Origin: an uncultured bacterium
Lineage (GTDB): Bacteria > Bacteroidota > Rhodothermia > Rhodothermales > UBA10348
DNA: 64,000 nucleotides
NCBI GenBank assembly: GCA_943788505.1
Contig: CALSQR010000001.1
Location: 992,001-1,056,000 of the forward strand
Direction: 5' to 3'
How positions within the stretch are numbered: position 1 is the stretch's first letter; the number at the start of each line of letters is the position of its first letter. A program made the translations under genes and the position numbers. Shown here one piece after another: positions 1 to 55,108 of this stretch. The notes beneath the pieces are model-generated. The model was not told the DNA's origin, did not search any database, and saw only the letters and a program-made list of their open reading frames with translations.

Positions 1-618
1 CCTTCCCGGCCATTTAGGGTACTCTTTTTGAGCAATATGTTCATTGAGAAAGGATGGGAAGACGTATTAGAAGCGGCCGCGATCATGCGTCGAGGGTCAG
101 CCCGTAAATCTGGCCTTGCCATGACGATGGTCTTTGCTGGAGCCTGGCCATCAGCAACGATTGAATACCGATTTACCAGTCAGGTTGAGCGGCTTCAGCT
201 TCAAGACTCGGTGATTCACCTCGGTGCACTTAGAGATCGGCGTCAGATTCGCGACAATCAGCTCAAGGCTGATGTGTTCGTATTGCCCTCCTGGTTAGGA
301 GAAGCCCAGCCACTTTCTATTCTTGAAGCCATGGCTGCCGGTACCCCGTGCATTGTCTCTGATGCGGGCGCTATGCCGGACATGATTGGTGGTGACGAAG
401 CTGGACGCGTCGTACCCGTGAAGGACCCTGCAGCGATTGCAGAGGCCATAACGACCATGATGGACCCTGAGGAATGGGGAAAATGCGCTTTGGCCGCTCG
501 AGAAAGGTTTGAATCACACTATAACAACGATGTTATACGCGAAAAATGGATGGCACTGCTCGAGAGCATCGACCAAGAGAAGACTGTGATCGAGCCTCGC
601 GTCGGGGGCCCCTCATGA
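1..618 (+). CDS. Glycosyltransferase family 4, C-terminal part (runs off left edge)
   Basis: The reading frame is open from base 1, so this is the 3' part of a longer gene. It begins inside the classic start of the GT4 C-terminal Rossmann domain (VLFLSNMFIEKGW, a strand followed by the K-G loop) and contains the donor-binding E-x7-E region (SWLGEAQPLSILEAMAAGTP). GT4 enzymes transfer a sugar from a nucleotide-sugar to a lipid or glycan at the cytoplasmic face of the inner membrane. The stop codon overlaps the next gene's start (ATGA at 615-618), so the two are probably translationally coupled. With the flippase behind it, this is the end of a surface polysaccharide cluster. Acceptor and sugar cannot be read from this part. 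Confidence 0.9.
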   Translation, partial: PSRPFRVLFLSNMFIEKGWEDVLEAAAIMRRGSARKSGLAMTMVFAGAWPSATIEYRFTSQVERLQLQDSVIHLGALRDRRQIRDNQLKADVFVLPSWLGEAQPLSILEAMAAGTPCIVSDAGAMPDMIGGDEAGRVVPVKDPAAIAEAITTMMDPEEWGKCALAARERFESHYNNDVIREKWMALLESIDQEKTVIEPRVGGPS

Positions 619-1853
619 GCAGCAAGATCCTCAAGAACATGAGCTGGCTCACGGTCTCTAACCTGGCCGTTAAGCCACTCTGGTTCATTTTTATAACGTA
701 CGGCTGCATCTACTACATGGGACTGGCCCAGTATGGTGTGATGACGGCGGCTCTTGCCTTGATGAGTATCTGCGATGGATCCCTCACCCTCGGATCCTCT
801 CCCTACACTATTCGAGAATTATCTCGCACGCCCGAGCGCTCATCGGAATTCTTCTCCAACCTACTACTTTCTCGCATTGGTATGTCGTTGATCGCGGTAA
901 TACTGGGCCTCGTGATTCGGATCATGCTGGGAACAGGGGCGCTGGATGTCGTTCTCTTTGCTGGCGGTTATGTGTTGGCGCGCAACGTGTTGGAGTATTG
1001 CAGAGCCCTCTTCCGCGCACATGAGATTTTCCAATACGAAGCGTGGTCGACCATGCTTGAAAAGGTATTAGTCATCGGCGCCGGTATGTGGGCGCTGACA
1101 GTTACTCCCTCAGCGGCATCGGCCCTTATGGGCATGAGCCTCGGTATGGCGGTCACTTTCCTACTTACGTTCGCCTGGGTGACACGTGGACTGGCGCCTT
1201 TCAACTGGCATCTTGTATCTGGGAAGTTCTTCCGTGAAGCGCTACCGCAGGCCGTCCCGCTAGGACTCTCTTCGATATTTGTACTACTGTATTATCGTAC
1301 CGACAGCATCATGATCGAAGCGTTTGACGGGGATCTCGTCACGGGCCAGTACGGTCTAGCGTTCCGAATCACAGAGGCGATGGTGCTTCTTCCATATATC
1401 GTAACGTCTGTCTTGCTCCCACGTCTGTCCTCTTTATATGCTTCAGACGGCGCTGCATTTGGCCGACTATTCAAGCAAGGAATAGCCGGGATGGCACTGA
1501 CAGCAGGGCTCGCGGGGTCTGCTGTCTATTTGCTCGCGCCATGGGGTATACCACTGATTGATTCTAGCGTTGATGCGCTTCCAGCCATTCCTCTTCTGCG
1601 TATTTTGGTGATTTCTTTTGTCATCAGTGCGATTAACCAGATGATGATCACGCACCTGACAGCAACGAATCAGCAAAACCGTTTGGCAGTGATTCTAGCG
1701 ATTGCAGCGGTTCTGAACATCGGACTGAATTTGCTTCTTATCCCTCGGTTTTCGGCTCAAGGAGCTGCGTTTGCCACCGTTGCCACCCAAATCCTGCTGG
1801 GGCTTCTTTTCTTTGCACAGATGCAACGCGGGCCAACAAAACGTACGGCTTGA
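615..1853 (+). CDS. Wzx-like polysaccharide flippase (MOP/MATE superfamily)
   Basis: A 412-residue polytopic membrane protein with roughly 12 hydrophobic segments and the usual oligosaccharide-flippase pattern: an N-terminal NLAVKPLWFIFITYG-like first helix, a central half-repeat (LPQAVPLGLSSIFVLLYYR), and a C-terminal pair of helices with scattered Asn/Gln. Such proteins move undecaprenyl-linked glycans across the inner membrane. I chose the ATG at 615 because it overlaps the upstream stop (ATGA) and the frame upstream of it (from 546) is hydrophilic and lies inside the glycosyltransferase gene. The family is clear; the substrate is not. No gene follows in the same direction for 197 bp. Confidence 0.88.
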   Translation: MSSKILKNMSWLTVSNLAVKPLWFIFITYGCIYYMGLAQYGVMTAALALMSICDGSLTLGSSPYTIRELSRTPERSSEFFSNLLLSRIGMSLIAVILGLVIRIMLGTGALDVVLFAGGYVLARNVLEYCRALFRAHEIFQYEAWSTMLEKVLVIGAGMWALTVTPSAASALMGMSLGMAVTFLLTFAWVTRGLAPFNWHLVSGKFFREALPQAVPLGLSSIFVLLYYRTDSIMIEAFDGDLVTGQYGLAFRITEAMVLLPYIVTSVLLPRLSSLYASDGAAFGRLFKQGIAGMALTAGLAGSAVYLLAPWGIPLIDSSVDALPAIPLLRILVISFVISAINQMMITHLTATNQQNRLAVILAIAAVLNIGLNLLLIPRFSAQGAAFATVATQILLGLLFFAQMQRGPTKRTA

Positions 1854-2050
1854 TAGTCCAACCTGTGCTAGCCGCCAAGAGGGTTTGTCCAGACAGGTAG
1901 CAGGCAGGTAGCAGCCGATAGTGTGTAACCGTTTGGCAGCCTGAAACGTACCTGCGGAAACAACATGGTTCTCCCGCCAACTAGTGGCCAGTATTTGGTC
2001 AGAAAATGGAGGTCCGAGAATCAACACATTGAGGGAATCCGCCAAGCAAC

Positions 2051-3778
2051 ATGAAAAAGTCAGTTACCGCCCTGTTCATCCTGAGCCTATCGCTCATCTT
2101 CGTCCATCCGACGTTTGCCCAAGATGAACCATCAAACCGTGTCCCTGCTGAATATGAAACCGTCGTTTCAGCCGTCCAGCAAGTCATGGGGCTGTTGCAG
2201 GACGTCACGCAGAGGCACGCAAAAGAGCCGATCAACGATCAGATCCTGAGCATCAGCGACCGACTGGCAATGAACGGTCCGGTCACCGGAGGCTTCCGTG
2301 GTATGCCCGAAGAAGACCTGGTAGAGATGCTTCGTGATATTGAAATTGAGCTCGAAAGTATCTCACGTTCGCTTGAGCGGAGAGGTGAGGATGACCTTGC
2401 TCGCCGTCTCGATAGCGTTCTCAGAGAATTAAGCTCGGCCATTCAGGAAGCAGATCACGATAATGTCCGCATCCGAAAGGATTCGCCTTACCGGTATGAA
2501 ATTAAGAATGGAAGGGAGCGCGTGACTATTCGTACTAGTGATGGGGACTGGTGGGACGACGACGATCGCTGGGAAGAAAAGCATGGCGGTCGAGATGAGC
2601 GCTGGCGCGATCGCCGAGATGATTGGAGTGATTCATGGAATGGTGGCAGTTCTGACTGGGTAACCTCGTCCGAATCTGTATTGGGCGAATGGAATCATCG
2701 CTGGCCATTCCAGCAGTATTCCCTGTATCGCAACATCCCTTCGTTTCGCTACAACCGGGTTGAAGGCCTTTTCTTAGGCGTTACACGCGCTCCGCTCGAT
2801 TGGTCTAGCTGGGACCGAGGTCGGATATATGGCCAAGGTGGCTATGCCTTCGCGATGAAAAAATGGCAGTATAAGGTCGGCGCTGAAACGCGCTTCGGTG
2901 ACCGTCAGAGAAATCAAGAGGTTGATCTCAAGATTGGCGGCGCTTACCAGCGCAATACGGACACGGATGATCTGTGGAAAGCTTCCTGGGCTGAAAACAC
3001 AGCCGCCGCTTCTCTATTCCGTCATGACTTTTTTGACTATCACGGCACAGAAGGCTGGACCGCGTATGCTGTAGCTCGTCTGACTCGGTTTGCCCAGTTG
3101 AGTGCCGGATACCGGGATGAAGAGTACTCGAGCCTTCGAAATGAGACTAATTGGTCCCTGTTCGGCGGAAGTGACTTCCGTCCCAACCCTGGCGTTAACG
3201 AAGGCCAAATGAAATCATTCGTGCTCTCGTTTGAAGGTGGAAGCATCCGCTCGCTACAGAGCCGCCCACGTGGCGCTGCCTTCAGACTGGAGGCTGAGCT
3301 AGGTCAGGGACTGGGAGGAGATTTTGATTTCTCGCGCTATCTGGGTGATGTCCGCACCTATGCTCGCCTCACTCGAAATGCCGGTCTGAGTCTTCGTTTC
3401 CGCGGTGGTTTTACGGAAGGCACCGTGCCGGTTCAAAAAGCATTTACGCTTGGCGGCATTGGTTCGGTTCGTGGATACGAGCAGAACGAGTTCATCGGAA
3501 CGCGAATGATGCTGGCGAACGCTGAGCTTTCATTGTACGAGCCAGATCTTATGGACTGGATCCTCGATGACATCACGCTCTTTGGCACATTCGATGCCGG
3601 ATGGACGAACTTGCAGGCTGGTCAGGATGCGTTCGACATGAACGATGTAATCCCATCTGCAGGATTTGGGTTAGCCTTCGATGATCGCTTGGTGCGAATC
3701 GAGGTGGCATGGCCACTGCGCGACCTGGGTACTGGTTTGGAACCATCAGTCTGGTTCCGTATCAACCCGACGTTCTAG
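2051..3778 (+). CDS. Omp85/BamA-like outer-membrane barrel protein without POTRA domains
   Basis: 575 residues with a Sec signal peptide (ends near A22-Q24). After it comes a helical, coiled-coil-like stretch (about 30-130), then a low-complexity linker rich in Trp, Asp and Arg (about 165-205, for example GDWWDDDDRW), then a beta-rich C-terminal half ending in Phe. Around residues 467-480 is GGIGSVRGYEQNEF, matching the VRGF/Y motif on loop 6 of Omp85-family barrels (BamA, TamA, FhaC, surface antigen D15). Amphipathic strands and the terminal F fit an outer-membrane barrel. No POTRA repeats are seen; the helical domain may replace them (inference). The gene is alone, with its own 197-bp leader and a strong terminator after it. 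Function (secretion, insertion or lipid handling) is unknown. Confidence 0.8.
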   Translation: MKKSVTALFILSLSLIFVHPTFAQDEPSNRVPAEYETVVSAVQQVMGLLQDVTQRHAKEPINDQILSISDRLAMNGPVTGGFRGMPEEDLVEMLRDIEIELESISRSLERRGEDDLARRLDSVLRELSSAIQEADHDNVRIRKDSPYRYEIKNGRERVTIRTSDGDWWDDDDRWEEKHGGRDERWRDRRDDWSDSWNGGSSDWVTSSESVLGEWNHRWPFQQYSLYRNIPSFRYNRVEGLFLGVTRAPLDWSSWDRGRIYGQGGYAFAMKKWQYKVGAETRFGDRQRNQEVDLKIGGAYQRNTDTDDLWKASWAENTAAASLFRHDFFDYHGTEGWTAYAVARLTRFAQLSAGYRDEEYSSLRNETNWSLFGGSDFRPNPGVNEGQMKSFVLSFEGGSIRSLQSRPRGAAFRLEAELGQGLGGDFDFSRYLGDVRTYARLTRNAGLSLRFRGGFTEGTVPVQKAFTLGGIGSVRGYEQNEFIGTRMMLANAELSLYEPDLMDWILDDITLFGTFDAGWTNLQAGQDAFDMNDVIPSAGFGLAFDDRLVRIEVAWPLRDLGTGLEPSVWFRINPTF

Positions 3779-3819
3779 TCAGACCTATTAGCTGAACGAT
3801 CAAAGGACTGAAAACTCGA

Positions 3820-3852
3820 GAGGGGCGCACGATCTACGATCGTGCGCCCCTC
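3820..3852. terminator. Bidirectional intrinsic terminator between convergent genes
   Basis: A near-perfect hairpin: a 14-bp arm gaggggcgcacgat (3820-3833) and its complement (3839-3852), extendable to 15 bp with a 3-base loop. It lies between the stop of the outer-membrane gene and the stop of the convergent peptide transporter (3880) and can serve both strands. Confidence 0.85.
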
Positions 3853-3879
3853 TTCACTTCTTGCTATTCCCGAATCAGT

Positions 3880-5370
3880 CTATTCAACGCCTCCGGTAAA
3901 GCGTTTCAATGGGAAGGCCAGTAGAAGCGCGACAACACCTGCACCGGCGCTGATCATAGCTACCTGTGAGAAGAGACCGTCGAATCCAAGATTTCCAATG
4001 TCTCCTGCAACCAGACCGGCAATGAGATTACCAAGTGCAGTAGCAACAAACCAGATTCCCATCATCTGCCCTACACGTCCCTCAGGGGCGAGCTTCGTGA
4101 TGGAGGACATTCCAACTGGTGACAAGCAAAGCTCACCAACCGTGTGTAGGAAATAGGTTACGATCAGGAAGGTGATACCAACGCTTCCAGGCTCAGCATT
4201 AGCCGCGCCCCACGCAATGACGAAAAAGCCTGCACCCAGTCCGAGAAGACCAAGGGCAAACTTTACTAGGAAGGATGGATGCTTCTTAATCCGTGCGAGT
4301 GTGATCCATAACGAACCAAAGATCGGCGCAAAAATGATGATGAATGTCGAATTGACTGACTGTAGCCAGCTCGCTGGCATTTCCCAACCACCAAATTCAC
4401 GATCTGCCATGCGATCAGCGAAAAGGTTCAACGACGAACCGGCCTGTTCAAATCCTGACCAGAAAATGGCAGCAAGAATGAAGAGCCAGAAAATGATCCC
4501 AAGTCTCTTTTTCTCGAGCGCATTGTGTCCAGCGAAAAAGATCAGGTAGATGAAATACACGGCTACAATAATCAGAATGCTCGACCCGAGGCCCTCAGCG
4601 ATATCTGTCAGGGTCAAATCAAAGACGCCGCTCGAAACCAAAAATCCGAACAAGACCAATACAGCCGCGCTGGCTCCTGAAATGAGGTAGAATTTTCGCG
4701 TCTTCGAAGCAATGGCGTCTTGTGAATCCGTCGTCTTTAGCGCTCCAGCAGCCCCAAGATATTTCGTACCCATCCGGTACTGAATCAATCCCAGGACCAT
4801 TCCAAAACCAGCTAAGGAAAACCCATAATGCCAGTTGATGCCCTCTCCAAAGTATCCACATGCAATTGGACCTAGGAAAGCGCCAATGTTAATTCCCATG
4901 TAGTACACCGAAAATCCGGCATCGCGAGCGGCACCGCCTTCAGGATACAACTCACCAACAATCGTGGACACATTCGGCTTCAGCAGTCCCGTTCCAAGAA
5001 CGATCAGAATCAAGCCGAAGAAGAACATTTCCGTCATGGGAACGGCCATACTAAAGTGACCGGCTGCAATGATTACACCACCCACAAAGACCGATTTCTG
5101 TTGACCCCATATTTTATCCGCAACCCAACCGCCCGGCAGAGCGAGCAGGTAGACAAGACTCGTATAGAGCCCATATATGGCCGCTGCAGTGCCGTCGGTC
5201 AGACCCATCCCGGGATTATCACCCGTTACTGCTGCAGTCATGAAAAGAATCAAGAGAGCGCGCATGCCATAGTAGCTGAAGCGCTCCCACATCTCCGTAA
5301 AAAAGAGTGTCGCTAGACCGCGCGGGTGACCAAAAAAGGTGCCGCCGGGTAACGAGGCTGTTTGGGACAT
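3880..5370 (-). CDS. POT/PTR2 family proton-dependent peptide transporter
   Basis: 496 residues, 12-14 membrane segments. The N-terminal helix carries the ExxER(F) proton-coupling motif of the family (residues 26-30, EMWER followed by FSYYGMR). The second signature (VYYMGINIGAFLGP) and GTGLLKPNVSTIVGELY are the usual PTR2 patterns. These inner-membrane symporters import di- and tripeptides with protons. The gene stands alone and points toward the terminator at 3820-3852; its promoter must lie in the 142-bp divergent gap shared with aspS. Length and motifs are complete. Confidence 0.93.
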   Translation of the reverse strand: MSQTASLPGGTFFGHPRGLATLFFTEMWERFSYYGMRALLILFMTAAVTGDNPGMGLTDGTAAAIYGLYTSLVYLLALPGGWVADKIWGQQKSVFVGGVIIAAGHFSMAVPMTEMFFFGLILIVLGTGLLKPNVSTIVGELYPEGGAARDAGFSVYYMGINIGAFLGPIACGYFGEGINWHYGFSLAGFGMVLGLIQYRMGTKYLGAAGALKTTDSQDAIASKTRKFYLISGASAAVLVLFGFLVSSGVFDLTLTDIAEGLGSSILIIVAVYFIYLIFFAGHNALEKKRLGIIFWLFILAAIFWSGFEQAGSSLNLFADRMADREFGGWEMPASWLQSVNSTFIIIFAPIFGSLWITLARIKKHPSFLVKFALGLLGLGAGFFVIAWGAANAEPGSVGITFLIVTYFLHTVGELCLSPVGMSSITKLAPEGRVGQMMGIWFVATALGNLIAGLVAGDIGNLGFDGLFSQVAMISAGAGVVALLLAFPLKRFTGGVE

Positions 5371-46340: not shown

Positions 46341-46820
46341 ATGAATGATCCAAGCGAGTGCCTACTGGCAGTGGACCTAGGTTTGCGAACCGGGCTAGCG
46401 GTATTTGACCGCTCAGGCATGCTACTTTGGTATCGCTCGCGCAACTACGGCAACAAGACACGCTTGAGAAAGGCTGCTCGCTCTGTTATCGACGAAGCTG
46501 GCACCGTACACGTAGTTGCTATAGAAGGCGGCGGTGACATAGCTATGCCTTGGATATCAGAAATCGAGCGCAGAGGGTTGGATGTGATTCAATGCCAGGC
46601 TCATGTATGGAGAAGAGATCTTCTACTTTCTAGGCATCAACGTAGCGGTGCCGATGCTAAAAAGCATGCAGACACGTTAGCTCGGAAGATCATTCAGCTA
46701 TCAGGCGCAAAGAAACCCACCTCTCTGCGTCATGATGCGGCAGAAGCGATCTGCTTCGGGCTGTGGGCCGTACGTCGAGCAGGATGGATTGCCCGGTTTC
46801 CTTCGGGGATCGGTACATAA
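46341..46820 (+). CDS. RuvC-fold (RNase H-like) protein, possible Holliday-junction nuclease
   Basis: 159 residues. The pattern is that of RuvC-type nucleases: LLAVDLGLRTG with Asp12 on the first strand, VVAIEGGGD with Glu62, and the C-terminal LRHDAAEA (Asp132 and Glu135) in place of the D-x-x-D of RuvC. It is not the RuvC housekeeping gene (too short, no RuvC-type dimer helix recognised). It starts 4 bp after the restored DUF1569 stop and lies just upstream of the tRNA-Leu integration site. Its substrate is unknown. Confidence 0.7.
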   Translation: MNDPSECLLAVDLGLRTGLAVFDRSGMLLWYRSRNYGNKTRLRKAARSVIDEAGTVHVVAIEGGGDIAMPWISEIERRGLDVIQCQAHVWRRDLLLSRHQRSGADAKKHADTLARKIIQLSGAKKPTSLRHDAAEAICFGLWAVRRAGWIARFPSGIGT

Positions 46821-46984: not shown

Positions 46985-47068
46985 GCCTCGGTGGCGGAAC
47001 TGGTAGACGCATGCGACTCAAAATCGTATATCCTTACGGGTGTGGGGGTTCGATTCCCCCCCGAGGTA
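46985..47068 (+). tRNA. tRNA-Leu (anticodon CAA), integration target
   Basis: 84 nt: acceptor GCCTCGG/CCGAGGT (G-U at the first pair), D arm GGTAGACGC, anticodon stem TGCGA/TCGTA with loop CTCAAAA (anticodon CAA), long variable arm and T arm with TTCGATT loop; discriminator A. The last 11 bases CCCGAGGTACA (47060-47070) occur again at 49230-49240 after the integrase gene. Confidence 0.92.
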
Positions 47069-47070
47069 CA
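47060..47070 (+). other. Putative attL (tRNA-Leu 3' end)
   Basis: The 11-mer CCCGAGGTACA at the 3' end of tRNA-Leu(CAA) is repeated exactly at 49230-49240. The integrase-bearing segment lies between the two, so the copies are candidate attachment sites (attL here). Confidence 0.6.
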
Positions 47071-47073
47071 AGA

Positions 47074-47109
47074 AAAGCCCCTTCACGTCAGACGACGTGA
47101 AGGGGCTTT
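47074..47109 (+). terminator. Intrinsic terminator after tRNA-Leu(CAA)
   Basis: A 16-bp stem (47074-47089, 47094-47109, core aaagccccttcacgtc) with a 4-base loop. It lies inside the proposed element, so integration has replaced the host's own terminator. Confidence 0.85.
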
Positions 47110-47170
47110 GTGTATCGTAGGCGTTTCGCGATGGCGAATCCTCTTGAGGTCCCAATCCAATCGAGTGAAA

Positions 47171-47338
47171 CTACTCGAAAAGTCGACCAACAAAACCGGC
47201 GATGATTCCGATGACAACCAGCATAGCAATCAGGTGCAGGAAGCTAGGCTGGATGATAAACAGGGTCGATAGAGGGATCATTGGAAAAATGATCATACAG
47301 AACGCCCAGCCGATAGTCTGCTTGAATGAGTTTCTCAT
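47171..47338 (-). CDS. 55-residue two-helix membrane protein in the element
   Basis: A short frame on the minus strand from ATG (47336-47338) to TAG (47171-47173). It encodes MRNSFKQTIGWAFCMIIFP, then a second hydrophobic stretch LIAMLVVIGIIAGFVG and a charged tail RLFE. Two membrane helices are clear; no strong ribosome-binding site is visible, so expression is uncertain. It faces away from the 100-residue gene downstream. Confidence 0.5.
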   Translation of the reverse strand: MRNSFKQTIGWAFCMIIFPMIPLSTLFIIQPSFLHLIAMLVVIGIIAGFVGRLFE

Positions 47339-47532
47339 GACGGAAAGAAAAGCGGAGTGGAAAAATATTCAGAACAGAATGTACGGTTCAAAACCCCTTT
47401 AAATCACATCCCTAGGCAACCTTCCGCGTTTTTTCGAGCAATATGGGGACTAGGTCACTTGCCGACCTAGGGAACGAGAAGGGGGCTCAGCCCATATACT
47501 TAGTAAGTATTACAATTTTAAGAGGTTTGCGG

Positions 47533-47835
47533 ATGGCGTTGTTTATCAACCAAGATGCCAAGCTTGGAGAGCTGGAAGGGAGCGGATACCTTTTTCAGAA
47601 CAAGGATTCGATCGAAGTGTCATACCAGGGCGTCTTTTTTGGGTCAGAGGACAAAGCAGAAGCCATGCAATCCCTCGTAGAACATGAGCCGGTTAAGTTC
47701 ACCGGTGTGCTCTACAAAAAGAACCGTTCTGGAGCTATCAAGAAATCGAAGATTGAGATGGATGTAGATGTCACACAGTTTAGAGAAGTATCCATGGGCG
47801 CCCGAGCGCTACTAGAAGGCATCGAAGAGTCGTAG
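47533..47835 (+). CDS. 100-residue protein of unknown function in the tRNA-Leu element
   Basis: The start at 47533 is preceded by AAGAGG at good distance, so the frame 47443-47835 is read from MALFINQDAK. The protein is strand-rich (GYLFQNKDSIEVSYQGVFF, FTGVLYKKNRSGAIKKSKIE) and hydrophilic, with no signal peptide or known motif. It is the only non-integrase soluble protein of the element; I do not recognise it. Cargo or control protein are both open. Confidence 0.65.
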   Translation: MALFINQDAKLGELEGSGYLFQNKDSIEVSYQGVFFGSEDKAEAMQSLVEHEPVKFTGVLYKKNRSGAIKKSKIEMDVDVTQFREVSMGARALLEGIEES

Positions 47836-47861
47836 GCTGATTAAGAAACACTGAGTGCTTA

Positions 47862-49088
47862 TTAACCTCCCCACAGCCTGTCGATGTGCCCATCAAGAGC
47901 AGGACTGTCGAACCTATCGAGATAATTTTCTGTCTGCTTGATAGATGAGTGCCCGAGTGCATGGGAGATATCGTAAATAGATTCACCTGCTCTACGAGCA
48001 ATGTCTGCGTAGGAGTGCCGAGATGCGTAATAGCTAAAGCTGATTCTGATACCAGCCGTTTCCTTTAGCCTCCGGAGATCTTTGTTTATCAGGGCGTTGC
48101 GCGATTGAATGGCACTCATGAGGCGGTTTTCATCCGACAGATCGTAGCCCACTAGTAGGGGAAAGATGAAACCCGACGACGATTTGGGATCACCATACTT
48201 TTCCAGTATCGCTTGGGCAGGCCCAGCAAGAAGGATAGACTTGTTCCGCTGGGTTTTGGACATGGTATAGTCCAATCTGAGCCGTCCATCGCCTGCAGAT
48301 ACAACATGATCCCATCGCATCAAGCAAAGATCTTTGAACCTGATTCCTGCGCAGTAGATGGAGAAGAGTAGATAGTCACGCGCGCGGCTCACACCTGAAT
48401 CTTGCCGTAGCACCACTGTTTTGATTCGTTCGATGTCGTCAAGCGTCAGCCGGACAATCTTACCCGAGGGATCACCGACTCTAAAATCTGCGAAAGGGTT
48501 GTGACCAGGGCGAACGGCCCCATCATTCCTAGCTCGGTTGAAGATGGCACGAATGGCCTTCAGGTGCGATACCACCGTCGTCTCCTTATTACCTCTCTTC
48601 GCGATTCGATGAGACTTGTAGGATCTCAAAAAGGCAGAGGTGATATCGTCTAGCGAAAGTGGCCCGCCGCAGAAAGTACGCAGGTGCTTAGTCACATTGC
48701 GATAGCGTCGAGCGGTGTACACCTTTCCTTGCTGCTCGAGGTGCCTAATGTAGAGGTCCGCGTGGGTAAAGAAGTCCGCCTTTGCACCGCGCTCGTTCGA
48801 TACGGACTCCTTCAAGCCTCTAGCCGTTATCGGTTGTCGCTCGAGCTTACGCCTCGCTGCCTCCCGTTCTAGCGCAGCTACACGATCGGAAATAATCGTA
48901 TTGACAATCGAGACCCTGTCTGAACTTCCCTTGAGTCGCCCCCTGTTCTCATCCCACTCGTTATCTAGCGCCTTCTCACCTAGTGAGACGAGAGCTCGCT
49001 GACGATTGACCTGTATGCGAATGTAGATAGGTGAGCGACCCTCGCCGTCCCGCTTAGCCGTCCACAATATCGGTGTGATAGTAGCCAC
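47862..49088 (-). CDS. Tyrosine recombinase (Bacteroidota-type integrase)
   Basis: 408 residues. N-terminal arm-binding and SAM-like domains (WTAKRDGEGRSPIYIRIQV, HADLYIRHLEQQGKVYTARR), then the catalytic core: first Arg in CAGIRFKDLCLMRW, then Ser-Arg-His in YASRHSYADIAR, His in LGHSS, and the nucleophile Tyr in TENYLDRFD. The integrase cuts and joins att sites by the tyrosine mechanism. Its 5' end (49088) faces the right att copy at 49230, a usual arrangement. It is the only mobile-element enzyme here, so the element is tiny (about 2.2 kb). Confidence 0.92.
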   Translation of the reverse strand: MATITPILWTAKRDGEGRSPIYIRIQVNRQRALVSLGEKALDNEWDENRGRLKGSSDRVSIVNTIISDRVAALEREAARRKLERQPITARGLKESVSNERGAKADFFTHADLYIRHLEQQGKVYTARRYRNVTKHLRTFCGGPLSLDDITSAFLRSYKSHRIAKRGNKETTVVSHLKAIRAIFNRARNDGAVRPGHNPFADFRVGDPSGKIVRLTLDDIERIKTVVLRQDSGVSRARDYLLFSIYCAGIRFKDLCLMRWDHVVSAGDGRLRLDYTMSKTQRNKSILLAGPAQAILEKYGDPKSSSGFIFPLLVGYDLSDENRLMSAIQSRNALINKDLRRLKETAGIRISFSYYASRHSYADIARRAGESIYDISHALGHSSIKQTENYLDRFDSPALDGHIDRLWGG

Positions 49089-49090
49089 TT

Positions 49091-49184
49091 GACCTCTAAT
49101 TGGTGACGCATTAGGTTACGCACAAAGGTGATATCAAACGACCTATGTGGATATCTTTGGACACTTTTTCAGTCTTTAGAGGTC
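49091..49184. promoter_or_regulatory. Inverted repeat upstream of integrase (candidate operator or arm sites)
   Basis: gacctcta (49091-49098) is repeated in inverted form as tagaggtc (49177-49184), framing the integrase promoter region. Between and after them are three GGTGA-type copies (49102, 49127, 49206). Such repeats can be integrase arm sites or an operator; I cannot tell which. Confidence 0.4.
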
Positions 49185-49229
49185 ATAGGAGCCTTTTTTT
49201 GATTTGGTGATACTATGGGGTTTACTCCA

Positions 49230-49240
49230 CCCGAGGTACA
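49230..49240 (+). other. Putative attR (copy of tRNA-Leu 3' end)
   Basis: Exact 11-mer CCCGAGGTACA, the same as the tRNA-Leu(CAA) 3' end; the eight bases before it (actccacc region) also resemble the T arm of the tRNA but not perfectly. It lies 142 bp upstream of the integrase start, on the far side of the element. Confidence 0.6.
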
Positions 49241-49245
49241 GGATG

Positions 49246-49290
49246 AAGCCCTCTGCTTGTTGCGATACACAACGAGCAGAGGGCTTTTTG
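49246..49290 (+). terminator. Hairpin with U-tract after attR (possible original tRNA terminator)
   Basis: A 12-bp stem aagccctctgct (49246-49257) with its complement at 49275-49286, extended by a GTTG/CAAC inner stem, then a run of Ts. It begins 5 bp after the attR copy, exactly as the terminator after tRNA-Leu follows attL, so it may be the host's own tRNA terminator, displaced by the insertion. Confidence 0.75.
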
Positions 49291-49473
49291 CATCTGGAGT
49301 ATTTCTGGCGATTACAAGGGAGACTGATTGTACTCAGCGTACAAAGCCCTACCCCCGCTATAACCGATCAACGCTCCGGTTGCCATTCGTCGATTCGCTG
49401 CATTCAGTTGAATCCTAAATGTCCCCCTTGAGTTAGGGTGCATTTGGGATTTCATGATGATAGAGGATACTTG

Positions 49474-52400
49474 ATGAAAGTGATATCGGTCTGCGCGTTT
49501 GCGGTCGGTCTTGCTGTAGGGATACTGGCCGTAAAGCCGGGGTTGGCCAACGTCTCCGGTCCGGTGTCTCACGGATCAGAAAAAGCCGAAGGCCATGGAT
49601 TCAGCGCACTGATTTTTTCGAAGACGGCTGGCTTTCGCCATGACTCCATTCCTGCGGGAATCGCTGCTATCGAAGCTCTTGGAGCAGAGCACGATTTTGA
49701 CGTGACCTCGACCGAGGATGCGTCCGTGTTCAATGAGACGAGCCTCGCCCCCTACGATGTCGTCATCTTCCTGAACACGACAGGAGATATACTGGACGCG
49801 GATCAGCAGCTCGCCATGGAGTCTTTTCTGGCGGCTGGAAAGGGGTATGTGGGCATCCATGCAGCAGCGGATACGGAGTATGGATGGGACTGGTACGCTG
49901 ATGTCGTTGGGGCGTATTTCGATAACCATCCGGAGATTCAGTCGGCGGAGCTATTGGTGGAAGGCCGTGTACATCCGGCAACAGCCCATCTGCCGGCTCG
50001 GTGGCAGCGCACCGATGAGTGGTACGCCTTCAGGACAAATCCAAGAGACGATGTCCACGTACTGATCTCGCTAAACGAGAAGAGTTATTCGGGGGGCACG
50101 ATGGGGGCGGATCACCCATGGGCGTGGTGCCGCGAGGTTGAGGGAGGGCGGTCCTTTTATACCAATGGCGGCCATACCCCTGAAAGCTTCTCGGAGCCCG
50201 ATTTTTTGGCGCACCTTTTGGGAGGAATCGAGTGGGCGGCCGGCGCTCAATCAGGCGACTGCGGGGCAAGCATCAAAGAGAACCTTGAGAAAACCATCCT
50301 GGACGACACCACCCAAAATCCGATGGATCTGGTAGTCCTCCCAAGCGGTGATGTCTTGTTTCTCGAGCGCGCAGGCCAAGTACGAGTGATCTCACAGGAA
50401 ACGGGCATTACGAGTACGGCTCTCGACCTGAACGTCGCGCTGGATAATGAGGATGGCCTCTTGGGCATCGTTTTGGATCCTGATTTTGCGCAAAACGGGT
50501 GGATCTATCTGTTTTACTCCCCTGCCGGCACAGTCCTACAGAAAGTATCCCGGTTCACGTTTGATGGTTCACTCCTTGATCCCTCATCGGAAGTCAACAT
50601 CCTGCAGTTCGGGGTGGACCGCAACGAGTGTTGCCATTCTGCAGGCTCGATGGCGTTCAATGCCGATGGGCATCTTTTCATTGCCACCGGCGATAACACG
50701 AACCCGTTCGCATCGGACGGGTTCGCTCCATTGGACGACCGTGCGGGCCGTGCACCTTGGGATGCCCGACGCACCAGTGGAAATACGAACGATCTACGTG
50801 GAAAAATCCTGAGGATCATCCCCCTTGATGACGGCGGCTATGACATTCCCGAGGGAAATCTTTTTTCCGAGGGCTCGGCATTTACGCGGCCTGAAATCTA
50901 TATCATGGGCGTGCGCAATCCGTTCCGAATTGCACTGGATACGCAGAATGGTGCGCTATTCTGGGGCGATGTCGGACCGGACGCAGAGTCAGATAATGGT
51001 GTCCGTGGCCCCCGAGGATATGACGAATGGAACCGCGCGACGGCAGCCGGGAATTACGGATGGCCATTCTGCGTAGCCGACAACAAGCCCTACACGGACT
51101 GGGAATTTGCATCAGGAACCTACTCCGGGCTGTTCGACTGTGCCGCGCCAGAGAACACGTCCTCCTTCAATACCGGCTTGTCTACGCTGCCCTCGAGTGA
51201 GCCGGCGTGGATTTACTACCCTTACGGCGTTTCGATCGAGTTTCCTGCTATTACAGGGGGGCCTGGTCGAACCGCTATTGCCGGGCCGGTATACCGGTCA
51301 TCGGGAGAAGATGTAAGAGGTGCCCTACCCTCCTATTTCTCCGGATCTTTCTTTATTGGCGAATGGACACGCAGCTGGCTGAAGCGGGTCATTATGGATG
51401 ATGACGGCGGCGTCCTGCGCATACTCCCCTTTGCAGATCACTACGATTACCTGCGTCCCATCGCCCTTAAAATGGGCCCAGATGGTGCTTTTTATGGCAT
51501 TGAGTGGGGCTCGGGCTTCGGGGGCAACAACGCAGACTCGCGCATTTTCCGCATCTCCTACGAAAAAGGAAATCGAGCACCTGTCGTGCAGGTCAACACG
51601 TCGGATCTAGCCGGTGCCATACCGCTGGAAATTACCTTTGACGCATCCGAATCAACCGATTCAGACCCAGGAGATCAGCTCTCCTATGCATGGGATTTTA
51701 CGAATGATGGTGAAATTGACGCTACGGACCCCGTCGTTACCCACACCTACGATGTTGAAGGCGACTACACAGTTGTCCTCGAAGTCCGGGACACCTTCGA
51801 TAACGCCGTTACACGCTCCTTCTCGGTGCGCGCGGGGAATACATTCCCAGTGGTAACCATGACGGCCCCAATGGCCGGAACCATGTTCTCCTGGGGTGAC
51901 ACCTTGAATGTTGTGGTCGCGGTTACCGACGCAGAGGATGGATCCACGGCAGACGGTTCCATCGACTGCTCGGAGGTCGAATCTCAGCCCTTCATCGGCC
52001 ACGACGAACATGCACACCCGCTCGATGTCTACACCGGGTGCGACATACAGATCGTGACCCCTGATGGGCACGGCTCCCCAGGCGATCGCATTTTCCTGTA
52101 CCTGGAATCTCGATATCAGGACGGCGGCAGTAATGCGGTTTCCAGCGCGCAAGGACAGACCGAGACTCTTCTCTATCCCCGATCCTGGGAGGCAGAGCAC
52201 TACGACGAGGCCACTGGCATTGAGCTGGAGGATAGTGCCGATCCAACGGGTGGTCGTCGTCATCTGGCTTATATCGACCACGGAGACTGGGTGCTGTACC
52301 GAGATCGCAACCTGGCGGGTGTCAGTCACATTACGTTTCGAGTGGCCTCGGACGGCTCAGGAGGGACCATCAGCCTCAGAGAATCGTCTCCCGCAGGACG

Positions 52401-53334
52401 ATTGCTCGGAAAAACCCATGTGCCGGTTACGGGCGGCTGGCAAAGCTTTGTGGACGTGACCATGGCTGTTGAAGCTCCGAATGCTGCAGAGACCTCCGTT
52501 ACACCTATGGATCTGGCCTTGGTGTTTGAGAATGCCAGTTCAGGTGGCGGCTTGTTCAACATCAACCGAATGCTCTTTGAGGGTTCCGGCGTGGCAGGCA
52601 ACCGCGAGGAGTGGGGTCTGCGTACCGACTTGTATGCAAGCGCAGACTGGAGCGGAGAAGCAGTGGATGAGATCCATCCGGGTGTGAGCTGGTTCTGGGG
52701 AAACGAGAACCCAGTTCCCGGGGCCGCTGTGCGTCCCTTTTCGGCCCGGTGGCAGGGACGGCTGATTGCCCCGATCAGTGGGTCTCTTCGTTTGTTCGCA
52801 CAGACGTGGGGTACGCTTCGGCTAGATATTGACGGAAGTTCTGCCATCGAAGTCCTGTCGGAAGGTACGTCTCCAACGACTTCTTCCCGGCTGTTCAGGG
52901 TCGCGAAGGGCCAGGAGCTGCTACTGGATGCACGGTATTCCGATCAATTAGGGAATGCAGGACTCATACTGTCGTGGGAGGGCACGGGCCTTGTTCGCCA
53001 AACGATCCAAATGAGTGATACGCGCCTTCCGAGTGCCTCAGGTACGTTACGTGAGCGTGCCGATGACCTGCCAAGCGGAAGTGCGCTCTTGAAGGCATAC
53101 CCCAACCCGTTCCAGCAGGCGCTTACCGTTCGTGCGAGCTGCAATGCAGGCTCAACCGTGGAAAGCTCTGTCGTCGACGTGCTCGGAAGGCGTCGGCACC
53201 TCGGAAAGATACCTTGCTCGCATCACGGTCACATCGTGCTGGATGTGAATGCTGACCAGCTGACAGCAGGCGTCTACTTTGTGGTCGTCCACACTTCAAC
53301 CCACCTACTGACGCTACCCGTTACCAAGTTGTAA
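49474..53334 (+). CDS. Giant secreted protein: ThuA, PQQ-type glucose/sorbosone dehydrogenase, PKD, CBM6, PA14 and T9SS tail
   Basis: 1286 residues, signal peptide, ribosome-binding site AGAGGA before ATG 49474. Domains in order: ThuA-like (about 40-265, GYVGIHAAADTEYGWDWY), GSDH-type beta-propeller dehydrogenase (about 280-700, GDVLFLERAGQVRVIS, GNYGWPFCVADNKPYTDW), PKD (about 705-795, ADGSxD-type DASESTDSDPGDQLSYAWDF), CBM6-like (about 905-1040, YIDHGDWVLY), PA14-like (about 1050-1185), and a C-terminal T9SS type A sorting domain (YPNPFQQALTV, VLGRR, GVYFVVV). It is exported through the type IX system, so likely a surface sugar or polyol oxidiser acting on plant or algal glycan. It stands between the integrase element and the relic scar. 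Confidence 0.88.
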   Translation: MKVISVCAFAVGLAVGILAVKPGLANVSGPVSHGSEKAEGHGFSALIFSKTAGFRHDSIPAGIAAIEALGAEHDFDVTSTEDASVFNETSLAPYDVVIFLNTTGDILDADQQLAMESFLAAGKGYVGIHAAADTEYGWDWYADVVGAYFDNHPEIQSAELLVEGRVHPATAHLPARWQRTDEWYAFRTNPRDDVHVLISLNEKSYSGGTMGADHPWAWCREVEGGRSFYTNGGHTPESFSEPDFLAHLLGGIEWAAGAQSGDCGASIKENLEKTILDDTTQNPMDLVVLPSGDVLFLERAGQVRVISQETGITSTALDLNVALDNEDGLLGIVLDPDFAQNGWIYLFYSPAGTVLQKVSRFTFDGSLLDPSSEVNILQFGVDRNECCHSAGSMAFNADGHLFIATGDNTNPFASDGFAPLDDRAGRAPWDARRTSGNTNDLRGKILRIIPLDDGGYDIPEGNLFSEGSAFTRPEIYIMGVRNPFRIALDTQNGALFWGDVGPDAESDNGVRGPRGYDEWNRATAAGNYGWPFCVADNKPYTDWEFASGTYSGLFDCAAPENTSSFNTGLSTLPSSEPAWIYYPYGVSIEFPAITGGPGRTAIAGPVYRSSGEDVRGALPSYFSGSFFIGEWTRSWLKRVIMDDDGGVLRILPFADHYDYLRPIALKMGPDGAFYGIEWGSGFGGNNADSRIFRISYEKGNRAPVVQVNTSDLAGAIPLEITFDASESTDSDPGDQLSYAWDFTNDGEIDATDPVVTHTYDVEGDYTVVLEVRDTFDNAVTRSFSVRAGNTFPVVTMTAPMAGTMFSWGDTLNVVVAVTDAEDGSTADGSIDCSEVESQPFIGHDEHAHPLDVYTGCDIQIVTPDGHGSPGDRIFLYLESRYQDGGSNAVSSAQGQTETLLYPRSWEAEHYDEATGIELEDSADPTGGRRHLAYIDHGDWVLYRDRNLAGVSHITFRVASDGSGGTISLRESSPAGRLLGKTHVPVTGGWQSFVDVTMAVEAPNAAETSVTPMDLALVFENASSGGGLFNINRMLFEGSGVAGNREEWGLRTDLYASADWSGEAVDEIHPGVSWFWGNENPVPGAAVRPFSARWQGRLIAPISGSLRLFAQTWGTLRLDIDGSSAIEVLSEGTSPTTSSRLFRVAKGQELLLDARYSDQLGNAGLILSWEGTGLVRQTIQMSDTRLPSASGTLRERADDLPSGSALLKAYPNPFQQALTVRASCNAGSTVESSVVDVLGRRRHLGKIPCSHHGHIVLDVNADQLTAGVYFVVVHTSTHLLTLPVTKL

Positions 53335-53351
53335 ACGCCGCTGCGGATTTC

Positions 53352-53415
53352 GAGCCGTCAACAAACAGGCGTCATCGCCTGCCGATACAACATGATCCCA
53401 CCTCATCAAGCAAAG
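53352..53415 (-). mobile_element. Remnant of a second integrase gene (43-bp near repeat)
   Basis: Bases 53373-53415 match 48287-48329 in the integrase at 40 of 43 positions (catcgcctgc…gatacaacatgatccca…catcaagcaaag). On the minus strand it encodes LCLMRWDHVVSAGDD, the integrase LCLMRWDHVVSAGDG segment, with mainly silent changes. The match also continues as gagccgtc (53352-53359) after a 13-bp insertion. It is a piece of a related but separate integrase gene, now decayed. Confidence 0.75.
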
Positions 53416-53547
53416 GACGTCGGAGAAGGTACCGGGCTTGGACTGGATATTGCCCATCGCATCGTGGTCCAGCAGCACCGCGGTCAGATTCTGGTCGAAT
53501 CCCAGCCGGGCCGCACGCGATTCAGGGTGCAGCTACCGATAGCCTGA
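53416..53547 (+). pseudogene. Histidine kinase C-terminal fragment
   Basis: 43 codons and a stop encoding the end of a sensor kinase ATP-binding domain: GEGTGLGLDIAHRIV (G2 box), then GQILVESQPGRTRF and a closing QLPIA. Its beginning lies exactly at the edge of the integrase relic. Only the last part of a kinase gene remains, so it cannot work as a kinase. Confidence 0.8.
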
Positions 53548-53549
53548 CT

Positions 53550-54182
53550 CTACTTTCGCACCCACCAACGCAGGCCAAATAGAACGAGCAGGGTCGAGGC
53601 GTAAACGAGCGGTTCGGTTTCTAGTAATTTGGTTTGCCATAGGAAGTGCAGTACCACCAAAACCCCAATCGGATAGATCAATTTGTGCAGCCGGTTCCAA
53701 CGTTTGCCTCCCATGCGTCGAATCCACCCTGTCGTGCTGGTTACCGCCAGTGGGATTAGAAGCAACCAGGCCAAAAAGCCCACTAGAATCCAGTTTCGTT
53801 CGATCACATCTTCGGCAATCGGTCCCAACTGCATACGCTGGTCGAAAATGAAGTAACTGAACACATGCAATGATGCATACAAAAATGAGAATAACCCCAG
53901 CAGTCTGCGAAAACGATTCGCTTTGTTGAACGAAGCCAAACGTCGCACAGGTGTTATGGCAAGTGTTGTCAACAGAAAGATGAGGGACGCCGTGCCAGTC
54001 CAATGTTGGATCAGTTCGACCGGATCATCGACAAAATCCCCGCCCGTATACTGGCCAGATAGAAATATCCGGTCCACAAGAATGGCAATCGGAGCCAAAG
54101 ATACCAGCCATACGGCAATCTTGGCTGCCACCACCCAGTCTTTCTTTTTCGATCGCGGGACGGGAGGTAACGTGTTGGCCAT
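53550..54182 (-). CDS. msrQ: MsrQ, heme-binding membrane subunit of the periplasmic methionine-sulfoxide reductase
   Basis: 210 residues, six helices of the ferric-reductase-like fold, with conserved His in FSYFIFDQRMQ/SLHVFS and LHKLIYPIGVLVVLHFL. MsrQ passes quinol electrons to MsrP. Its start shares the A of the msrP stop (TGATG), so the pair is coupled. Confidence 0.9.
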   Translation of the reverse strand: MANTLPPVPRSKKKDWVVAAKIAVWLVSLAPIAILVDRIFLSGQYTGGDFVDDPVELIQHWTGTASLIFLLTTLAITPVRRLASFNKANRFRRLLGLFSFLYASLHVFSYFIFDQRMQLGPIAEDVIERNWILVGFLAWLLLIPLAVTSTTGWIRRMGGKRWNRLHKLIYPIGVLVVLHFLWQTKLLETEPLVYASTLLVLFGLRWWVRK

Positions 54183-55108
54183 CAGTAATTCTTACGCAAG
54201 TCCATTCCTTCGTACAAGGGAGCTACCTCGTCATAGCCATTGAACATGAGTGTGTCACGGCGAAAAAATTCGCCCAGACGGCGCTCCGTTGCCTGACTCC
54301 ACCGGGGATGATCCACTTCGGGATTCACATTGGCATAGAAGCCATACTCGCTTGGAATGGCTTCAGACCAGGTCGTACGTGGCTTATTTTTGGTGAAGCG
54401 AATTTTGACAATCGATTTCCCGCCCTTGAACCCGTATTTCCAGGGAATGATGAGGCGGATGGGGGCGCCATTCTGCGGGGGGAGTTTCTTGTCATACACG
54501 CCCGTGACCATGAGCGTCAGGGGATGCATCGCTTCATCTATTCGTAGGGCTTCGACATATGGCCACGGCAAAACAGGGCTCATCTGGCCTGGCATTTTCC
54601 GGGTGTCGTACAGGGTAGTGAACTCGACATACTTTGCATCTTGCGTCGGTCCGAGTCGCTCGATAAGGTCCTTGAGCGGGATACCGTTCCATGGCACCAC
54701 CATGCTCCACCCTTCCACGCACCGATGCCGATAGATGCGCTCCTCGACCGTAAAACCGTCGACCAACTCATCAAATGACCACGACCGCGCTTCTTCCACC
54801 TCTCCGTCAACCTTAATTGACCACGGCTCCGTTACAAAATTCTTCGCATAACGAGCAGGATCGTCCTTTCCTGTGCCGAACTCGTAAAAATTGTTATATC
54901 CAGTGACCGTTTCCCACGGTGTGAGATCATCATCCGTGGTTCGCATGACTGGTTTGTCAGAGCCTGTTCGTGTAGCGGCAAGAACGCCTCCGACTGTTAG
55001 CGCGCCACCAATCCCGGCGACAGACGCTTTCGTCATGAACGCTCTTCGGTTCATGAACAGCTTTTCTGGCGTGACTTCCGATGGGTGAGGATGATTTCCT
55101 TGGGACAT
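54182..55108 (-). CDS. msrP: MsrP, periplasmic methionine-sulfoxide reductase (molybdopterin)
   Basis: 308 residues with a twin-arginine signal ([10 protein letters not shown]). The molybdenum-ligand Cys is C130 in [16 protein letters not shown]. It repairs oxidised methionine in the periplasm using electrons from MsrQ. The upstream 212-bp gap should hold the promoter; a single operon with msrQ. Confidence 0.93.

Follow-up and report, generated by a model that had tools for sequence, protein, structure and literature searches.

A probable remnant of tandem integrative elements beside tRNA-Leu(CAA) in an uncultured Rhodothermales bacterium

The locus to the right of tRNA-Leu(CAA) described here, in which the att sites and the integrase family are both genuine, is probably an ordinary decayed tandem accretion that has undergone an unusual later rearrangement. 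In the window, which is the whole 64-kb stretch of DNA analysed, the order is tRNA, hairpin T1, orf55, orf100, the integrase gene int1, an att copy, hairpin T2, a gene encoding a ThuA protein, an integrase scrap, the tail of a histidine kinase gene and MsrQ (Table 1). It would be a decayed piece of a tandem array whose integrative elements used tRNA-Leu(CAA) as attachment site, and the block would have been imported to the right of genes that were already resident. As judged from the comparisons below, the foreign DNA appears to comprise int1, the att copy, the hairpin, the ThuA gene and the integrase scrap, about 47836-53416. Most of it would thus lie outside the att pair, reaching right past the ThuA gene. 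A first-pass annotation had described an unusually small element with only two cargo genes, a view that finds no support in that form: the two genes are resident by all indications (see below), and the imported DNA is larger and includes the ThuA gene. That this gene belongs to the imported DNA had been passed over, as had the integrase scrap psi-int2.

Table 1. Features of the tRNA-Leu(CAA) locus, in window coordinates
Feature	Position	Strand	Basis or detail
RuvC-like gene, conserved to the left of tRNA-Leu(CAA)	46341-46820	+	synteny
tRNA-Leu(CAA), target gene	46985-47069	+	ARAGORN
Left att core CCCGAGGTACA, tRNA 3' end	47060-47070	+	exact repeat
Hairpin terminator T1	47074-47109	+	16-bp arms, no mismatch
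orf55, two-helix membrane protein, 55 aa, resident	47171-47338	-	synteny
orf100, 100 aa, resident core gene	47533-47835	+	synteny, structure model
Left junction resident/imported, breakpoint not at att	47836-47861	.	sequence after orf100 unlike all genus relatives
int1, tyrosine integrase, full length	47862-49088	-	Pfam, 408 aa
Right att core CCCGAGGTACA, T-arm-like context GGGGTTTACTCCA	49230-49240	+	exact repeat
Hairpin terminator T2	49246-49286	+	17-bp arms, 94%
ThuA / glucose-sorbosone dehydrogenase-like / PKD / CBM6 / PA14 protein, element 2 cargo	49474-53334	+	Pfam
psi-int2 scrap, 43 bp of a second integrase	53373-53415	-	93% to int1 48287-48329
Right junction psi-int2/histidine kinase gene	53411-53421	.	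aligned junction sequences
Resident histidine kinase, surviving C-terminal tail	53422-53547	+	HATPase_c
MsrQ/MsrP-like gene pair, conserved right flank	53550-55108	-	Pfam, syntenic at 64-78% aa

The 11-mer CCCGAGGTACA consists of the final 10 bases of tRNA-Leu(CAA) and one further base. It is found exactly twice in the window, both times on the plus strand, and 0.017 copies per strand would be expected by chance in a sequence of this length. Hairpins T1 and T2 start 3-5 bp past their respective copies, and their fold z-scores against mononucleotide shuffles are -6.4 and -6.8. The exact repeat, the paired hairpins, the integrase with its start near the right copy and the two short reading frames had all been noted in the first-pass annotation, and they are confirmed. 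A hairpin follows tRNA-Leu(CAA) in most of the relatives, element or no element. It is not a general companion of the att sites, being absent after the right att of G008 and after both att sites of G019, the two related elements described below. To the left of the tRNA the RuvC-like gene is syntenic in G001, G002, G005 and G006 (78-79% amino acid identity); it has no Pfam match, and its likeness to RuvC was recognised by eye only. The tRNA of the window is itself identical over its full length to that of G021 and G025, which belong to another genus, and differs from that of most of its own genus at about eight positions, mostly in the 3' half. Possibly, this half was brought by an earlier element.

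The int1 protein has the architecture usual for tyrosine integrases of Bacteroidota, with Arm-DNA-bind_5, SAM_5 and Phage_integrase domains all scoring above the Pfam cut-offs, and the gene starts 142 bp to the left of the right att copy. Among 60 relatives, two genomes of the same taxonomic family as the window (G008 and G019) encode complete homologues (36-37% identity) located on the same contig as a tRNA-Leu(CAA) with an att repeat. In G008 the repeat is the 13-mer CCCCCCGAGGTAC, with copies 8380 bp apart, and in G019 it is the 16-mer CCCACCCGGGGTACAA, with copies 11738 bp apart; both elements are thus full-sized (8.4 kb and 11.7 kb). In both, the integrase gene is set 140-146 bp in from the right att copy and is read toward the tRNA. 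Because this layout of tRNA-end repeats and integrase spacing is shared, the earlier reading of the 11-mers as att copies, here of an integrase family that targets tRNA-Leu(CAA), is sound. The G008 element (L109 5620-14012, 8.4 kb) also encodes an excisionase-like HTH protein and a Thoeris-type pair, composed of a ThsB-type TIR protein and an 8xMP membrane protein, which is likely to be anti-phage cargo. No relatives of int1 were found in viral contigs (IMG/VR), and the att-T2 sequence likewise has no copy there.

Five of the six residues in the catalytic set R-K-H-R-H-Y are intact in int1 (R250, K278, R357, H380, and Y389). Only position 354 (codon 48027-48029), with which the HxxR catalytic box begins, deviates; it is a tyrosine, and all of the 101 relatives compared have the catalytic histidine in the aligned column. 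There are tyrosine recombinases that tolerate changes at this histidine position. The enzyme may therefore be impaired rather than dead, and given the substitution it is doubtful that int1 could excise anything autonomously.

The two short genes between the att copies had been taken for cargo. Each of the seven genomes of the genus contains one copy of orf55 and one of orf100, the two are divergently oriented neighbours throughout, and their sequence divergence tracks that of the neighbouring core genes (RuvC/MsrQ). These properties argue strongly that they are resident genes and not cargo of an element. Where the contig reaches the tRNA (G001, G002, and G005) they lie on the same side of it as in the window, and in G003, G004 and G006 they have the variable zone on one side and the rhodopsin/MsrQ region on the other. 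Homologues of orf100 are found in 34 of the 60 relatives. The predicted fold of the protein is mainly β with one helix (pLDDT 85), and neither a significant Pfam or NCBIfam match nor a confident match to a PDB structure in a fold search was obtained. The variable part of the locus across the genus is the zone between the tRNA and orf55, which contains only a DUF2721 gene in G002, an amidohydrolase gene in G001 and other genes in G005. In G003 (L103 1349-5600) and G004 (L104 14771-17374) the ThuA gene is found there directly beside orf55 and without an integrase, and in G003 there is no att upstream of it either.

The imported block begins directly after orf100, and neither of its ends is an att site. 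Its largest gene encodes a secreted enzyme with a weak type IX sorting tail, and the amino acid identity of this ThuA protein is 99.5% to that of G006, 91% to that of G003 and 80% to that of G004. At its end the ThuA gene region is fused to the psi-int2 scrap, which is continuous with a longer psi-int2 in G006 (C63:4391-5155). At the right junction the scrap meets the histidine kinase gene in a 6-bp microhomology, CAAAGG. Only the last 41 codons of the kinase are kept, and the window's genome yielded no further close copy of it. After orf100, G005 has a regulator/thioredoxin-reductase fusion, then KefC and the full histidine kinase, and finally the rhodopsin cluster. Judging from this gene order and from the kinase tail, the block occupies, from the end of orf100 as far as 53416, the place in which those genes would be expected. 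The block, from which the left part of the int1 element is missing, contains no relaxase or conjugation genes, no phage packaging, capsid or replication genes are present in 47070-53416, and no plasmid matched the block. The cluster of rhodopsin, lycopene cyclase, blh and MerR genes, which lies beside orf100/MsrQ in relatives, is located on contig 2 of the two contigs that make up the window's genome (L199 7664-11203). The absence of rhodopsin and carotenoid genes from the locus was considered as a sign of deletion and rejected, as the genes are present elsewhere in the genome.

The closest relative of the block was found in G006, a fragmented short-read MAG of the same genus (about 220 contigs and about 3% contamination). 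Positions 1-4434 of its contig C63 correspond to 48983-53416 of the window at 99.68% identity without gaps, and the mismatches are spread over int1, the spacer and the ThuA gene. This includes the right att junction, which recurs at C63:248; int1 is cut by the contig end. The genes flanking the locus share only about 71-75% nucleotide identity between the two genomes. Since the stretch is nearly identical although the two hosts are distant, there is strong reason to believe that int1, att, T2, the ThuA gene and psi-int2 have moved horizontally. In a scan of genome contigs this G006 contig was the only close relative of the block.

Beyond psi-int2, which in G006 carries an in-frame stop and a frameshift and has lost its C-terminus, C63 contains another CCCGAGGTAC at 5298 (att2), followed by a terminator. 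The ThuA gene here has an apparent terminator of its own, into which psi-int2 is fused. The order att2, terminator and amidohydrolase gene in G006 aligns with the order tRNA, terminator and amidohydrolase gene in G001, and G001 is therefore the empty site for an element, referred to as element 2, of about 5.05 kb. It consists of att, T2, the ThuA gene, psi-int2 and att, with att at both ends. Contig C105 of G006 ends with the tRNA joined straight to the sequence found at 49227-49305 in the window, exactly 79 identical bases. The tRNA-T2 junction (C105) and the int1-T2 junction (C63) thus both exist in the G006 assembly, on different contigs. Contig names of the k141 type, as borne by the matching public contig, are typical of MEGAHIT, for which 79 is one of the standard k values. 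Given these names and the length of the overlap, it looks like a branch in the assembly graph, where the tRNA and int1 are two left contexts leading into one right context.

It had been predicted that a relative would show the tRNA joined directly to the hairpin at 49246, as an empty site in which this hairpin was the original terminator of the tRNA. The junction is indeed found in G006, yet this genome has retained orf55 and orf100 to the right of the elements. The role assigned to the hairpin does not hold. In G006 element 2 has T2 after the tRNA and the displaced original terminator at its far end, so T2 came in with element 2 and is not the chromosomal terminator. Element 2 thus provided the G006 tRNA with T2, and the old terminator ended up behind att2. 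The more general proposal, that integration splits a tRNA from its terminator and supplies a new one, stands, only that it is seen for the neighbouring element 2 in G006. T1 is probably the resident terminator of the tRNA in the window, as it lies beside the resident orf55 and orf100. An attempt to trace T1 to the terminator of G002 was dropped when sequence alignment gave no decision.

Taken together, a tyrosine integrase family evidently inserts its elements into the 3' end of tRNA-Leu(CAA), with an integrase gene that is found about 140 bp in from the right att, oriented back toward the tRNA. Element 2 resides in the tRNA of G006, and a second integrase gene, int1, is joined to its left side. 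The block would be a piece of such a tandem that entered the window's genome and replaced the DNA between orf100 and the histidine kinase tail. The microhomology at the right junction suggests that this occurred by illegitimate recombination and not by clean integration at the tRNA, and the far att2 is gone in the window. Replacement by a piece of a tandem array is the simplest reading of where the block lies. Because both att copies now flank the resident genes, a working integrase could in principle excise T1, orf55, orf100 and int1 as a 2.17-kb circle.

It is less likely, though it deserves weight, that an integrase element captured orf55 and orf100 and integrated at the tRNA, between it and the ThuA element, and that a later deletion from psi-int2 to the kinase removed the resident copies. 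Neither att copy is damaged and their orientation is correct, the segment they enclose follows the layout of the family, int1 included, and G006 likewise has int1 to the left of the same att. This course of events is conceivable because, starting from a gene order like that of G006, one deletion is enough to leave exactly the right junction that is observed. It does, however, need more steps, namely capture, integration and a compensating deletion, and orf55 and orf100 are single-copy genes that have diverged like native core genes. Two orf55-orf100 pairs are found in none of the seven genomes of the genus, and in G006 the contig carrying the tRNA continues into T2 without a branch and shows no T1 after the tRNA.

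An artefact of assembly is improbable. The orf100/int1 or psi-int2/kinase joins would then be chimeric, or C63 would mix two organisms, and both the fragmentation and contamination of G006 and the assembly-breaking kind of repeats at the locus make such errors conceivable. Against this, the window's genome (G000) is in two contigs, and C63 has its own SNPs in int1 and the ThuA gene and continues rightward into a G006-type chromosome at species-level divergence. That the repeat and paired hairpins are a coincidence, the second copy being a chance or relic match, is hardly credible. The hairpins are in themselves no sign of integration, as most relatives have one after the tRNA with or without an element, but only 0.0008 copies of the 11-mer are expected in 3 kb, the same core and integrase spacing are found in G008 and G019, and the tRNA is joined directly to T2 in G006. 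A tandem piece imported next to resident genes thus remains the preferred explanation. The suggestion that the locus could be a satellite or a decayed island survives in spirit for its second half; for a satellite no phage or satellite gene was found.

It has been described before that a decayed element bearing att can accrete with a further integrase unit (PMC5704250). Decayed elements that keep their att sites are known as CIMEs, and their tandem accretion has been reviewed for ICEs and IMEs (PMC5704250), the original description being credited to Pavlovic et al. (2004, as cited in PMC5704250). Composite transfer has been reported for such tandems (PMC5704250). The arrangement in G006, with psi-int2, att at both ends and int1 on the left, corresponds to this pattern: an element with a broken integrase and intact att adjoins an integrase unit that shares its att, at the 3' end of a tRNA. 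It differs in that no relaxase or conjugation gene is seen, and in that the tandem piece of the window adjoins resident genes with breakpoints that are not at att. The mobilizable elements NBU1 and MTnPi4 of Bacteroidota are also found in the 3' end of a tRNA-Leu (PMC5704250), and they resemble the present family in target and integrase type, the two features compared, but the block described here is without mobilization genes.

Other integrating elements are known to affect the surroundings of their tRNA. Integration of ICEKp1 at tRNA-Asn displaces the tRNA terminator, leaving the tRNA without one, and int is driven from the tRNA promoter (PMC13023037). The tRNA's own terminator is then located past the distal end of ICEKp1, just as it is found after att2 in G006. 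Element 2, in contrast, supplies a strong hairpin after the tRNA, and its int is distal and reads back. The 10K genomic island of Riemerella lies beside a tRNA (Arg) and is flanked by direct repeats of 53 bp, which as printed end in a terminator-like hairpin (PMC6764341). It is similar in being a Bacteroidota island at a tRNA with flanking direct repeats; its repeat is, however, long and identical, whereas the locus described here has an 11-bp core and two differing hairpins.

A fragment containing an integrase gene and an att, imported downstream of resident genes near a tRNA target, might turn core genes into a mobile cassette without any capture. The window would then be a newly formed case and the ThuA element an earlier product, as the place of the ThuA gene beside orf55 in G003, with neither integrase nor att, might suggest; the idea is speculative and rather unlikely. 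The locus documents tRNA-Leu(CAA) as an integration hotspot in Rhodothermales, with examples of the empty, the occupied and the degraded tandem state, and it provides a case in which a tRNA receives its terminator from an element. Caution is also called for, since an att pair and an integrase are insufficient for calling all of the enclosed genes cargo.
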